Origin: Parahaliea mediterranea
GTDB lineage: Bacteria > Pseudomonadota > Gammaproteobacteria > Pseudomonadales > Halieaceae
Length of the DNA: 64,000 bases
Reading direction: 5' to 3'
NCBI RefSeq assembly: GCF_003402235.1
Contig: NZ_QEWO01000001.1
Location: 1,054,001-1,118,000, forward strand
The notes under the pieces were generated by a model. That model was not told the origin of the DNA and searched no databases. It saw only the letters and a list, made by a program, of their open reading frames with translations. Positions 45,628-50,782 of the stretch are shown here, piece after piece (the stretch's first letter is position 1; every line of letters starts with the position of its first letter). Made by a program: the position numbers and the translations under genes.

Positions 45628-46281
45628 CTAGAACCAGGACTCCGAGATGATCACGATATCCCCTGGCATCAGCGCCAGGTTGGCAGAAATATCGCCGTCC
45701 TTGAGCAAATCATCCAGGCGCAGTTTGTAGGATGTCTGCCCGCCGTCATCGGTGCGCACCAGTACCGAACCGTTGCCGTCGGCAAACTCGGTCATGCCAC
45801 CCACGGCGATCATCAGATCCAGCAGGGTCATGTGCTTGCGATACGGCACACTGGCCGGCTGGGCAGCCTCGCCCACCACCCGCACCTGTTGGGAGGGCAC
45901 GCCGACAAAGCCGTTGACGATGACACTGACTACCGGTTGACGCACATATTCGCCGTAGGACTTTTCGATATCACGGGCCAACTGGGTTGAGGTTTTGCCG
46001 CTCGCCTCGAGGTCCTCCACCAACCGGGTGGTGAACTTGCCGTCGGGCCGGACAACACCCACCGAGGAAAGCTCCTCGTTACCCCACACAAAGACTTCCA
46101 GGGTGTCACCAGGGCCGATGACATAGTCAAAATCCGCCGCTGCGGTGCGCTGCGCATCCGACATGGGCGGGCTGCTGTTGCCGGCGCAGGCTGCCAGCAA
46201 CACCGACAGCAAACCCGCAACGCCTGCATGAATCACTCCCCTTACCAAACCGGCCCGCATTTTTCCCTTTTGCTCGGACAT
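45628..46281 (-). CDS. Polysaccharide export lipoprotein, Wza/BexD-like, XrtA system (TIGR03027-type)
   Basis: The 217-residue outer-membrane lipoprotein has a signal with lipobox L-L-A-A-C at 28-32, so C32 is the acylated residue. A poly_export domain starts with D-Y-V-I-G-P-G-D-T-L-E-V. One SLBB-like domain follows, with V-R-V-V-G-E-A and a G-G-M-T-E-F-A loop. ATG 46281 is chosen because a near-perfect AAGGAGG lies 6 nt upstream; the frame extends 17 codons further without such a site. It begins the export part of the operon, and together with the barrel it would form the periplasm-to-surface channel. Confidence 0.93.
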   Translation of the reverse strand: MSEQKGKMRAGLVRGVIHAGVAGLLSVLLAACAGNSSPPMSDAQRTAAADFDYVIGPGDTLEVFVWGNEELSSVGVVRPDGKFTTRLVEDLEASGKTSTQLARDIEKSYGEYVRQPVVSVIVNGFVGVPSQQVRVVGEAAQPASVPYRKHMTLLDLMIAVGGMTEFADGNGSVLVRTDDGGQTSYKLRLDDLLKDGDISANLALMPGDIVIISESWF

Positions 46282-46363
46282 CTCTACCTCCTTGTGGGCA
46301 ACCTGCACCCTGTCTGTTATCCCAATGAGCATAGCACGCAGCCCGAATAACGCTGCATCTGCC

Positions 46364-47290
46364 CTACCTATCTGTGAAAGGCGTCACAGGCGCATCGGAG
46401 CGGCTGGCGACCGGGCTTTGCGGCGCTGCGCCAAGCTCCACCCACACCATGCGCTCGCCACTGCCATCCTCGCTGTCGTGACTGCCACCGTCGACTGGCG
46501 CTGCACCACTGCCGCGCCCCAGCACCTGCATGCGATCACGGGGAACCCCCAGCGCTGACAGCGCCGCCGCCACCGCGCCGGCGCGCCGCTGGGATAGCTG
46601 GAGATTATAGTCATCAGAGCCCACGGTATCGGCAAAACCGGTCACCGTGACCGGTGTGCCCGCATCGGCCTTACCGAGGACGCGGGCCGCCTCAGCCACC
46701 TGCGCCCGCCCGGCGGCGCTGAGGACGGCGCTGTCGAAGGCAAAGCGAATACTGGCCAGGGGGATGGGAGTGAGGGCTGTATCGGTTCCTGTATCGATCC
46801 CTGCATGGGAAGCAGCAACCTCATGAAAGATGCCATCGGCATCGCCCAGGGCGTCTGCGACCGTAGCGAGCGCGGCATTTGAAGCCACTTCGCCGGCCGT
46901 GCTCGCCACCGGGCTATACGCAGCCAGGTCCACAGGGGCGACCGGCGTTGCACTGACGACAACGGGCTGCAACGCCAGGCGTTCGGGGCCAAAGGCGCTG
47001 GCTGTCGGCCTTACCGGCTCGGCGGTGGTGTTGGGTGAAGCCGAGACCTGATCAGGCAGCGTCGCCTTGCGGCCCACGGCATCCCCCAGGGCGGGCCAGA
47101 GGCGAACAACCATCACGCCGGCCGCGCCCAGCAGCAGTATTACTAAGGTTACCAGCCCCCAGCGCCCCCGGGAGCGGCGCTGCCTGCGCCGGCTTCTGGC
47201 CCGCGACGGTGCCGATTTGGCCGGGGCATGGGCGGGCGGTGTATCTGGATGATCCGGTTTTTGACTGGCCACAGGCGCTGGACTGACCAC
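46364..47290 (-). CDS. TM plus OmpA-like peptidoglycan-binding ORF, probably the -1 frame extension of the ATPase gene
   Basis: Read from the first possible start, a GTG, this is a 308-residue product. It has a Pro/Ala-rich stretch, a very basic patch (about 29-43), one TM helix (about 45-64), a long linker and an OmpA_C domain (about 175-295). The peptidoglycan-contact pattern G-F-A-D-T and L-S-Q-R-R-A is present. No ATG occurs before the one inside the TM helix, no good ribosome-binding site precedes the GTG, and that GTG sits in an 18-bp coding repeat. The frame stays open upstream to an A9 tract inside the ATPase gene. I therefore think it is translated mainly as a fusion, about 679 residues in all, after a -1 shift at 47339-47347. 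Co-directional gene order and an ExeA-like logic (ATPase, TM, peptidoglycan binding) support this. Confidence 0.65.
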   Translation of the reverse strand: MVSPAPVASQKPDHPDTPPAHAPAKSAPSRARSRRRQRRSRGRWGLVTLVILLLGAAGVMVVRLWPALGDAVGRKATLPDQVSASPNTTAEPVRPTASAFGPERLALQPVVVSATPVAPVDLAAYSPVASTAGEVASNAALATVADALGDADGIFHEVAASHAGIDTGTDTALTPIPLASIRFAFDSAVLSAAGRAQVAEAARVLGKADAGTPVTVTGFADTVGSDDYNLQLSQRRAGAVAAALSALGVPRDRMQVLGRGSGAAPVDGGSHDSEDGSGERMVWVELGAAPQSPVASRSDAPVTPFTDR

Positions 47291-47298
47291 AGGCGCTG
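47263..47298. repeat. 18-bp tandem duplication in the linker of the ATPase/OmpA junction
   Basis: Two 18-bp units (47263-47280 and 47281-47298) differ at one base. On the minus strand they encode the repeated hexapeptide P-A-P-V-V/A-S, a linker-type sequence. Confidence 0.7.
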
Positions 47299-47303
47299 GC
47301 GCT

Positions 47304-47322
47304 GGGCGCGGTTGTCGCGCCC
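47304..47322 (-). promoter_or_regulatory. RNA hairpin downstream of the putative slippery site
   Basis: On the minus-strand transcript GGGCGCG pairs perfectly with CGCGCCC around ACAAC (7-bp all-G/C stem). It starts about 15 nt after the AAG of the slippery heptamer. No T-run follows, so it is not an intrinsic terminator. It may stimulate frameshifting, although 15 nt is longer than the spacer in E. coli dnaX. Confidence 0.45.
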
Positions 47323-47328
47323 CGGTTT

Positions 47329-48402
47329 CTAGTTCAGCTTTTTTTTTAGGGGCGCCTTTATCAGGGGCACTACCTGGGAGGTAGCGGCCACCCTGGCATC
47401 ATCGCCCGCATTGATACCTTCATTGCCACCTGCACTGCTATCCTCACTGCTAGCCTCACCGCCACCGTCATCACCGGGCAACGGCGGCGCTGCGGGGGCA
47501 TCATCAGCCGCAGTGGCCTCACTGCGCGGCGGGGCGTCGAACTCGTCCTCTACCGCAAAATCACTGTCACTGAATGCCTGGCCGGCGGCCAGGTGCTCGG
47601 ATTGCAGTTCATGGATGACCGCCTTGACTTCGGCACTGCCCAATTGGTGCTTCTGCTCCACCAGACAGTGCAGCAGCAGCCGGCTGCAGATAAGGTTGAT
47701 GCGCCGCGGCACGCCCTCGCTGAATTTATGGATCAGCGGATACACCGAGCGGCTGATGGCCGGGTCGTTCTGCCACCCTACCTGCTCCAGCCGGTGGCGG
47801 ATGTAGGCTTCGGTTTCGTCGGCCTGCAGGGCGGTGAGATGGCTGGCGGCGACAATCCGCTGGTGTACCTGCTCCATTTCAGGCCGCAGCACCAGTTCCC
47901 GCAGTTCCGGCTGCCCCAGCAAGAATACCTGCAGCAAGGGCTGGCCCTTGCTCTGGATGTTGGTCAGCAGGCGCAATTCTTCCATCGCAGTTAACGACAG
48001 GTCCTGCGCTTCATCCACAATTAACAGCGCCCTGCGCTGCTCACGGTTCCAGCGGTGCAGCAATTCGGTGAGCCCCTGCAGTAACTCGCCCTTCTCCACC
48101 ACCGCACTGCTGATGCCAAAGCTGTAGGCAACCATTTTCAGCAGGTCGTTGGCCTCCAACTGGGTACACACCAGGTTGGCGGTGGTCACCGATTCGTCCG
48201 CAAGGCTGTCGATCAAATCGCCAATCAGCGTGGTTTTACCGGTGCCGGGGCGCCCGGTGATCATGGCGAAGCCTTCGGCGCGCATGTAGGCGTAGGTCAT
48301 GTAGGCCCGCGCCTTGGCGTAGGCCGCATGCTCGTAGCGGAAGTGATGATCCGGACTCAGCCGAAAGGGCTCAGCGGTCAGGTTGAAATGGCGTTCGTAC
48401 AT
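47329..48402 (-). CDS. XrtA/PEP-CTERM-associated ATPase, ExeA/GspA-like (TIGR03015-type)
   Basis: The 357-residue protein is a cytoplasmic AAA ATPase with the N-terminal Y-x-x-x-F-x-L-x-x-x-P-F signature of ExeA-like proteins. Walker A G-R-P-G-T-G-K-T-T is at 50-58 and Walker B L-L-I-V-D-E-A-Q at 126-133. The sensor/arginine-finger region includes G-V-P-R-R-I-N near 230-236. After about residue 275 the domain ends in an acidic, low-complexity linker with a 12-bp coding repeat, closing with K-K-K-L-N. That end is encoded by nine A residues and includes an in-frame A-AAA-AAG heptamer. In ExeA a TM helix and peptidoglycan-binding domain follow on the same chain; here they are in the next reading frame. 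Confidence 0.93.
   Translation of the reverse strand: MYERHFNLTAEPFRLSPDHHFRYEHAAYAKARAYMTYAYMRAEGFAMITGRPGTGKTTLIGDLIDSLADESVTTANLVCTQLEANDLLKMVAYSFGISSAVVEKGELLQGLTELLHRWNREQRRALLIVDEAQDLSLTAMEELRLLTNIQSKGQPLLQVFLLGQPELRELVLRPEMEQVHQRIVAASHLTALQADETEAYIRHRLEQVGWQNDPAISRSVYPLIHKFSEGVPRRINLICSRLLLHCLVEQKHQLGSAEVKAVIHELQSEHLAAGQAFSDSDFAVEDEFDAPPRSEATAADDAPAAPPLPGDDGGGEASSEDSSAGGNEGINAGDDARVAATSQVVPLIKAPLKKKLN
47339..47347 (-). promoter_or_regulatory. A9 slippery tract (candidate -1 frameshift or transcriptional slippage site)
   Basis: On the coding (minus) strand CCT is followed by nine A and then GCTGAACTAG. In the ATPase frame the codons are CTA AAA AAA AAG CTG AAC TAG, which contain the A-AAA-AAG heptamer of dnaX. 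Slipping back one base gives GCT GAA CTA and 13 more sense codons into the TM-OmpA frame. Confidence 0.6.
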
Positions 48403-49646: not shown

Positions 49647-50567
49647 TCAGGCAAACTCTCCGACCAAAGCATCCAGGCGCGCCACCGCCGCATCCAGGTC
49701 GCTGTAGCGCAGGTCAAAGCAGTCCAGGCCATCGATAAAATGGCACATGGCGTCAAAGCCCGCTTCGCGCAGCAGGCTGTAGTTGAAGGCGTGGTGCGCG
49801 GCAAACAGGAAGCTCTCCGCCCGCCCCTTGGGTCGCAGTTCAAGCGGCGCACCGGCCTGGAATTCTGGGAACACCATCAACCGGGCGGCCACCGGCGCGC
49901 GGCAGTGGCTGTCGGGGTGAAGGTCTGCCTTCAGGTGGGCCACGCTGCCCTTGTGGGTATCATTTGAAACGGGCCCGATCACAGCGGCCGCATCCCGCCC
50001 ACGAATAACGTTGATAGACGCATTCTTGAGGCTGACCGGGCGATACACCGGCACCACTTCCCGGCGGCCGGGGGGAATCAGGGCATGCTCATCCGACAGC
50101 ACCCGCCAGCCACGCAGCGCCAGCGCCGCGCACAGGGTGCTTTTGCCGGCCCCGGGCAGCCCCGGCATAACCAGGGCAATGCCGTCCTTGGCCACCACCG
50201 CCGCATGCAGCTTGAGGTACTCGTTCATGGTCACCGATAGGCACCAGTTGAGCCCCCACTCCAGAAAGGCATAAGCCTGGCTGCGGGGCACGCTGCCGAA
50301 GGGGCGGCGCTCGTCGAGGAAGAAATCCAGTTGGCCCCGCAGCCGCTGGCGCCAGCCGGTGGGGCCAAAGGTCACATGGAAGTCGGCAAAGCCACCGGCA
50401 GGCACCAGCGGGAAATCCCCATACAGGGTGGCCAGCCCCCTGGCCACCACGGCCTCGGGGCTCTGGATGGCATAACAGTAGGGGCCAACCCGCAGGCGCA
50501 AACCGTCGCCCGACAGTTGCTCGCCCAGGGCATCGCTACCAAGATCGGCCAGCCGGGCGTAGCTCAC
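49647..50567 (-). CDS. HprK-related kinase A (TIGR04352-type)
   Basis: The 306-residue protein is related to the C-terminal kinase domain of HPr kinase. The P-loop P-G-L-P-G-A-G-K-S-T lies at 135-144. L-S-D-E-H-A-L-I follows, where HprK has its catalytic Asp region. The typical N-terminal HPr-binding domain is missing, and residues 1-120 are a different domain with Y-G-D-F-P-L-V near 49-55. The GTG start at 50567 overlaps the PqqD-like stop as GTGA. Its substrate is not HPr in any obvious way, since no PTS genes are in the window. The adjacent PqqD-like chaperone suggests a peptide or small-protein target. Confidence 0.87.
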   Translation of the reverse strand: MSYARLADLGSDALGEQLSGDGLRLRVGPYCYAIQSPEAVVARGLATLYGDFPLVPAGGFADFHVTFGPTGWRQRLRGQLDFFLDERRPFGSVPRSQAYAFLEWGLNWCLSVTMNEYLKLHAAVVAKDGIALVMPGLPGAGKSTLCAALALRGWRVLSDEHALIPPGRREVVPVYRPVSLKNASINVIRGRDAAAVIGPVSNDTHKGSVAHLKADLHPDSHCRAPVAARLMVFPEFQAGAPLELRPKGRAESFLFAAHHAFNYSLLREAGFDAMCHFIDGLDCFDLRYSDLDAAVARLDALVGEFA

Positions 50568-50782
50568 TGGCAATAGACCAGGCCGGCGGCAGCCAGCTCG
50601 GCCAGCAGCGCGTCTGCGGCCAGGACCGCAGCATCCGCTGGGCCGTCGCGTAACTGCAAAAGAAGCTGCTGCGCATCGGCGCTGATCAGATGGGTATCGC
50701 CGCTGTCCGCGTGATAACACACCACAACGCCTTCGCTGCGATCATAGAATTGTAGGGGGCCAGTCAGCTCCCATAGCGGCAT
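50564..50782 (-). CDS. PqqD-family peptide chaperone, HPr-rel-A system (TIGR04353-type)
   Basis: The 72-residue protein has the winged-helix RiPP-recognition layout of PqqD proteins: an N-terminal strand region V-V-V-C-Y, then G-D-T-H-L-I-S-A-D-A-Q-Q-L-L-L and a C-terminal helix ending G-L-V-Y. In RiPP systems such proteins hold a leader peptide for the modifying enzyme. Here the coupled neighbour is the HprK-like kinase, so phosphorylation of a bound peptide is a reasonable model. It is the first gene of the cassette. A 13-bp triple repeat lies about 100 bp upstream. Confidence 0.85.
   Translation of the reverse strand: MPLWELTGPLQFYDRSEGVVVCYHADSGDTHLISADAQQLLLQLRDGPADAAVLAADALLAELAAAGLVYCQ

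Follow-up and report, generated by a model that had tools for sequence, protein, structure and literature searches.

Introduction

To our knowledge, conserved recoding sites in cellular genes of bacteria, that is, outside insertion sequences and phages, are few. The E. coli dnaX gene has one at an A AAA AAG heptamer, with a stimulatory structure close downstream. The same heptamer is found in the gene described here, an ATPase gene within a 64,000-nucleotide stretch of the Parahaliea mediterranea genome (the window), but no conserved structure is present at this site and in its relatives. E. coli has a sole tRNA-Lys (PMC5009743), the only kind also found in the window genome, and its dnaX shift gives the shorter product (PMC1088944), whereas a shift in the window gene would give the longer one.

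In the dnaX gene of Thermus thermophilus an A9 tract lies in a gene with the long form in frame and near stops in both other frames, as described in PMC1088944 and PMC5009743. This layout is shared, with nine or ten A residues, by 16 of the 17 relatives of the window gene in which the long form is in frame. However, Thermus dnaX encodes a DNA polymerase subunit subject to transcriptional slippage, while our gene concerns an envelope protein for which slippage, its level, the two proteins produced and their task are all inferred from sequence. The window gene itself is arranged more like Shigella mxiE, where two out-of-frame ORFs are joined by an inserted base to give a longer product (PMC1088944); mxiE differs in that it has a U run, encodes a transcription activator and is not homologous.

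With respect to the product, the long form would resemble ExeA/GspA of type II secretion, which combines an ATPase, one transmembrane (TM) segment and periplasmic peptidoglycan binding on one chain; the type II secretin, an outer-membrane channel, depends on ExeA for its assembly (PMC4098917 for both). Unlike ExeA/GspA, our gene carries an OmpA-type PF00691 domain in the extension, lies in an XrtA polysaccharide locus and would yield two forms by the proposed slippage. It is like the XrtA/PEP-CTERM ATPases of family TIGR03015 in its full-length match and setting but differs by the slip site and the extension. Here we present the case that an A9/A10 tract in the linker of this XrtA-associated ATPase is likely to be a programmed slippage site giving a short and an extended form.

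Results

The slip site and the two reading frames

The short form and its 3′ end comprise the following features.

47329..48402, minus strand: XrtA-associated ATPase, short form, 357 aa, C-terminal KKKLN (TIGR03015 and AAA_22 PF13401 matches)
47339..47347, minus strand: A9 slippery tract (sequence; A9/A10 in 24 of 197 relatives)
47338..47344, minus strand: A AAA AAG heptamer in the zero frame, a potential site of ribosomal slippage (sequence and phase in relatives)
47329..47331, minus strand: zero-frame stop TAG, shortly after the A run (sequence)

In a profile search residues 1-269 of the short ATPase align with positions 1-269 of the 269 in the TIGR03015 model at 306.3 bits, which is 18 bits short of the curated cut-off of 324.5, and Pfam finds AAA_22 (PF13401) at 80.1 bits. 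For proteins of Halieaceae this threshold may be set too high: the one protein scored comes from a clear XrtA locus. Solved structures searched with the ATPase as query gave no match at 1e-5.

On the minus strand the gene ends CTA AAA AAA AAG CTG AAC TAG. The initial annotation had noted the run of nine A residues with the in-frame A AAA AAG at this end, and both are indeed present, at 47339-47347 and 47338-47344. The A9 is the only one in the 64-kb window, where 0.21 are expected from shuffles (at least one in 15 of 100 shuffles), and there are five such places in the whole 5.09-Mb genome. By itself the tract is therefore just mildly unusual and the weight of the argument rests on the relatives. 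Another coding A9 of this genome (L117, G000:C28:106647-106655) falls in the C-terminal tail, rich in Lys and Ala, of a protein judged HAD-like by eye; the other two frames are open around it, and it could be a second slip site or plain low complexity.

Beyond the A run the −1 frame offers a long extension.

46364..47341, minus strand: −1-frame extension, 325 aa, with linker, TM, periplasmic linker, OmpA domain and stop (frame reading)
47099..47155, minus strand: predicted transmembrane helix LVTLVILLLGAAGVMVVRL (19-residue hydropathy 2.52; coordinates derived by hand)
46481..46747, minus strand: OmpA-like peptidoglycan-binding domain (PF00691, 64.1 bits, extension residues 199-287; coordinates derived by hand)

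The frame stays open for 325 codons, to 46364, and joined to the ATPase it gives a long form of 679 aa, so that the fusion of about this length with a TM-OmpA part that had been proposed at first inspection is confirmed as a reading frame. The OmpA-type PF00691 domain is the sole Pfam match in the extension. Only if the frames are joined does the window gene place ATPase, TM and peptidoglycan-binding parts on one chain, an arrangement that is single-frame in the relatives of genus g6.

Among ATG, GTG and TTG, only two starts precede the TM helix, a GTG at codon 17 of the extension and another at codon 23. They sit in two 18-bp units that are identical at 17 of 18 positions by eye, in agreement with the earlier description of starts inside an 18-bp linker repeat, and a simple scan detects no Shine–Dalgarno-like motif at either. 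An ORF of 308 aa from the GTG at 47290 does exist, and the OmpA part might in principle be a separate gene with its own start to which the A run is incidental. We consider this very improbable. The start positions differ among relatives and in five genes none ahead of the TM has a Shine–Dalgarno-like motif; one relative (G027) has a linker-TM tail of 59 codons without any start before the helix, and in g6, L136 and L137 the ATPase and the extension form a single frame. An independent OmpA start was rejected for want of a conserved start or Shine–Dalgarno sequence.

Comparison of the extension between the window genome (G000) and P. aestuarii gives a dN of 0.46 and a dS of 1.51, and as judged from this pair the extension is evolving under amino-acid constraint. 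The linkers of the two species are 43% identical with saturated synonymous sites, and the A9 is nevertheless retained.

The XrtA locus

The ATPase gene heads an XrtA exopolysaccharide locus with all genes on the same strand. Downstream follow genes for an export protein, a chain-length protein, a kinase, an outer-membrane protein, an epimerase, a deacetylase, a FemAB protein, a glycosyltransferase and exosortase A.

45628..46332, minus strand: next gene, XrtA-system exopolysaccharide export protein (TIGR03027, 228.9 bits)

The family matches along this one strand are exosortase A, TIGR03087, TIGR03019, TIGR03006, TIGR03016, TIGR03018, TIGR03007 and TIGR03027. All nine named neighbours are XrtA-system or polysaccharide genes, and the window ATPase thus has the XrtA/PEP-CTERM polysaccharide setting expected of TIGR03015. 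A gene for an HprK-related kinase A (window positions 49647-50720, minus strand; TIGR04352, 332.5 bits) lies upstream of the ATPase at a distance of about 1.2 kb, on the same strand and with one unnamed ORF in between. ExeA/GspA works with ExeB and a type II secretin; a separate ExeA-like gene (36% identity) is found elsewhere in the genome at G000:C22:302298-303110.

The A run in related genes

The ATPase was found at 1e-85 in 39 of 140 genomes of the family. The Halieaceae counts comprise 37 genes from these 39 genomes; G008 and G020, of the short-paralog type with a longest run of A3, were left out here and included in the wider tree, and second homologs in G003, G022, G023 and G148 stand outside the 37. 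A scan of genome contigs gave 19 loci. Wider searches produced matches in 26 of 390 genomes of the order, 17 of 112 of family f41 and 94 of 369 of the class, with 79 class places fetched, 8 of which end at contig ends. After removal of duplicates the comparison set held 197 genes at ≥38% identity, a cut-off that may admit a few ExeA-type genes, and 13 genes below it.

An A9 or A10 run lies behind the ATPase domain in 24 of the 197 relatives, a count that is not one of independent genes since the genomes are related by descent. The longest A run in the tail is A7 in 11 genes, A8 in 5, A9 in 8, A10 in 16 and A11 or more in none; for the other homopolymers in the same tails the longest are eight T, eight G and nine C, and the 13 distant ExeA-like genes (<38% identity) have at most A6. 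Within Halieaceae, 13 of 37 genes carry A9 or A10 in the linker while the remaining 24 have A6 or less with none between, one of these 24 (G077) being cut by a contig end. L139, an XrtA-type ATPase gene of another family, has an in-frame C9 at codon 380, in its linker, which may be a slippery or variable tract of a different sort.

The initial annotation had suggested comparing the A run and the frames in relatives. Run, phase and extension do recur, and some relatives are single-frame. The short form is in frame with the extension in −1 in 7 of the 24 run-bearing genes, from three lineages of the tree, and the extension is never in +1; in the other 17 the extension is in frame. Five of the seven are from Halieaceae (G000 and G001 with A9; G004, G027 and G076 with A10), and in all five the zero-frame stop follows 3-5 codons on while the −1 frame continues to the TM. 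The heptamer A AAA AAG is in phase in each of the five, the two f41 genes having A AAA AAA instead. Pfam identifies OmpA in the −1 extensions of G000, G001, G004 and G076, and in frame in L136, L137 and G032, the sole g6 gene checked, which makes all seven of the TM-bearing tails submitted to Pfam; the 59-aa tail of G027 is too short for OmpA. In the eight g6 genes the run is A10 and the long TM form is read in frame. An A10 also precedes an in-frame TM-OmpA part in L136 and L137, which belong to other families of the class. In the ATPase-domain tree G000, G001, G004 and G027 form one clade and G076 groups with G077 beside g6.

Homopolymers are prone to error, and a single gene of the window kind might be put down to faulty sequencing or to a frameshift that simply destroyed the gene's function in one genome. 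Five assemblies of Halieaceae and two from a second family share the phase, however, which together with the constraint on the extension leaves this hardly credible.

Of the 24 run-bearing genes, 16 have a TM helix in the extension. The seven genes of genus g68 (family f41) share a homologous tail, read in frame in five species and in −1 in two (L124, L128); this tail (L095, L096, L122, L123, L126, L124, L128) is basic and RR-rich with a W/F-rich end and no TM, and the L095 tail gave no Pfam match. A membrane anchor is therefore not the common denominator. Two forms are not universally needed either, since several lineages have one form only: the short form in g4 and g14, the TM form in g27, g11 and g15. 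An in-frame fusion without an A run had initially been named as evidence against recoding. Such a gene exists, G155, whose in-frame long form of 726 aa has a longest A run of 3, yet the conserved tract elsewhere stands. In three Halieaceae genomes (G022, G003 and G023; L119, L120 and L121) a TM-type XrtA ATPase gene adjoins a divergent short soluble paralog, these paralogs sharing a clade with L016 and L017, and such side-by-side genes may represent a two-gene route to the same pair of proteins.

Phase variation would also involve a homopolymeric tract, its length changing during replication to turn the extended form on or off so that each cell has one form. Related clades do spell opposite states, and the named short-state genomes (P. 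aestuarii, P. mediterranea, S. albiluteola) are those of named strains while the named long-state g6 loci (L055, L058, L061) are from metagenome-assembled genomes. However, the state follows the tree rather than being scattered, the short state is always of the −1 kind in three lineages and never +1, and with one genome compared per species the runs are 9 or 10 only. The phase is also kept between A9 and A10 among the Halieaceae short-in-frame genes (xxA versus xAA start), so the length has varied without switching. On these last two counts, the tree-like distribution of states and the change of length at constant phase, phase variation is the weaker explanation, and we regard it as distinctly unlikely.

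Signs of selection on the run and its surroundings

An A/T run of about nine or more that is conserved in homologs is expected of programmed transcriptional slippage, and such a run is present in 24 of the 197 genes. It could also be a by-product of a KKK motif. KKK at codons 272-420 is found in 30 genes, 24 with A9/A10 and 6 without a run. When synonymous codons are redrawn (n = 189), 8.0 genes with at least A9 are expected versus 24 seen, and the listed redraw probabilities of the 13 Halieaceae run genes sum to about 1. The by-product explanation is thus rejected by the redraw for Halieaceae. It may still hold for g68, L131, L136 and L140: in the seven g68 genes the redraw alone often yields A9 (0.25-0.60), and for L131, L140 and L136 the redraw probabilities are 0.19, 0.68 and 0.48 and the off-frame stop values (see below) 0.46, 0.29 and 0.17. 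The runs of L131 and L140, and perhaps that of L136, could be due to chance.

In 16 of the 17 genes with the long form in frame, both other frames close within 17 codons. The median of the longer distance to an off-frame stop is 7 codons behind the run against 26 at other tail positions. These stops are closer than expected by chance for all 17 genes (P = 5e-5, the floor of 20,000 draws) and for a subset of 8 drawn from across the tree, with three g6 members (P = 0.0011; P = 0.0028 against positions behind lysine codons); a third set, of 12 genes including L072, was significant as well. The exception among the 17 is L072 (G148), whose +1 frame is open for 137 codons and contains a hydrophobic stretch.

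RNA polymerase or ribosome

Which machinery would slip is a question on which the evidence divides. We consider RNA-polymerase slippage somewhat more likely than ribosomal slippage, and both may act. A constant run length of 9-10, with both other frames closed by stops, fits slippage by RNA polymerase at least as well as by the ribosome; RNA polymerase is favoured in that the runs exceed what the ribosome needs and lack a conserved downstream hairpin. Single-base insertions predominate at A/T runs in RNA-polymerase slippage (PMC5574713), and since a single-base insertion is the change that opens the long form here, this also counts for RNA polymerase.

The alternative that the long form arises when ribosomes shift to −1 at A AAA AAG as in dnaX, with or without stimulation by a hairpin and without involvement of RNA polymerase, appears rather unlikely to us, though it has several points in its favour. 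The long form is always in −1, the heptamer is in frame in all five Halieaceae short-in-frame genes, and ARAGORN, run on the 40 places where Rfam marks a tRNA in the genome, identified one tRNA-Lys, with anticodon UUU, and none with CUU, the E. coli-like condition (PMC5009743). We therefore dropped an argument from tRNA-Lys for a Thermus-like mechanism; the finding of tRNA-Lys(UUU) only is compatible with ribosomal shifting and does not favour RNA polymerase. Against a purely ribosomal origin, the heptamer would need fewer A residues than the 9-10 seen, the two f41 genes do without A AAA AAG, and the stops in both off frames of the long-in-frame genes would be superfluous for a mechanism that shifts to −1 only. 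There is also no consistent downstream structure in the seven short-in-frame genes, with z-scores from −1.8 (G076) to +1.8 and folds of only −0.7 and −2.2 kcal/mol downstream of L124 and L128.

In the window a hairpin does follow the run.

47304..47322, minus strand: 7-bp GC hairpin, probably dispensable (stem 47316-47322 with 47304-47310, 5-nt loop)

This perfect 7-bp GC hairpin folds as first described, its stem starting 15 nt behind AAG, but for a sequence of this composition the folding energy is ordinary (z = −1.1). In P. aestuarii a 6-bp counterpart is recognizable by eye; outside Parahaliea the hairpin is not conserved. It was rejected as a conserved stimulator after folding 18 loci up- and downstream, which revealed nothing consistent. 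Stimulatory structures generally lie 5-8 nt downstream (PMC4066793); the window has the X XXY YYZ heptamer and no stimulatory structure at that distance. Of the dnaX-type mechanism proposed initially, the in-frame heptamer holds in five of the seven short-in-frame genes, while the hairpin is not conserved and the mechanism is not established.

Discussion

We favour programmed slippage at the A9/A10 tract as the source of two forms. The short product would be the ATPase ending just after KKK, and the long product would have the C-terminal extension added. In Parahaliea, where the DNA spells the short form, an added A, or a step of the ribosome into −1, would lead to the long form, while in genus g6, where it spells the long form, slippage in either direction would lead to the short one. 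The initial suggestion of a short ATPase alongside an envelope-anchored form of about 679 aa is well supported by relatives that share the run, its phase and the extension and by others that have this architecture in a single frame, and the production of both proteins is to be expected if the tract slips as proposed.

By analogy with ExeA, the long form might be anchored to peptidoglycan and take part in assembling the polysaccharide exporter, while the short form would constitute a free cytoplasmic pool. A more far-reaching and tentative possibility is that the tract acts as a topology switch: it would set the ratio of free to peptidoglycan-anchored ATPase and thereby dose assembly of the XrtA exporter, and, because the extension of about 1 kb lies ahead of the export genes, slippage would also set translation coverage and hence Rho-dependent polarity on these genes. 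The site would then have been reused across gammaproteobacterial families with either form spelled in the DNA.

The chemistry would be ordinary, of a known kind of recoding, and the recoded gene family appears to be new as far as literature searches show. Searches on slippage with PEP-CTERM, on frameshifting in the XrtA ATPase and on TIGR03015 found no report, and the claim of novelty reaches no further than these. By word search, the main text of PMC3711429 contains no ExeA, OmpA or ATPase, and that of PMC4066793 no ATPase, OmpA or exopolysaccharide.

A gene caller blind to slippage would probably record the short ATPase and perhaps the OmpA ORF as a gene of its own, and would overlook the fusion. 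One gene family contains both the layout of Thermus dnaX and that of mxiE. If the proposal is true, this is a protein switched between a soluble and an envelope-anchored state by recoding, and it gives a handle on the role of the ATPase of the XrtA locus.
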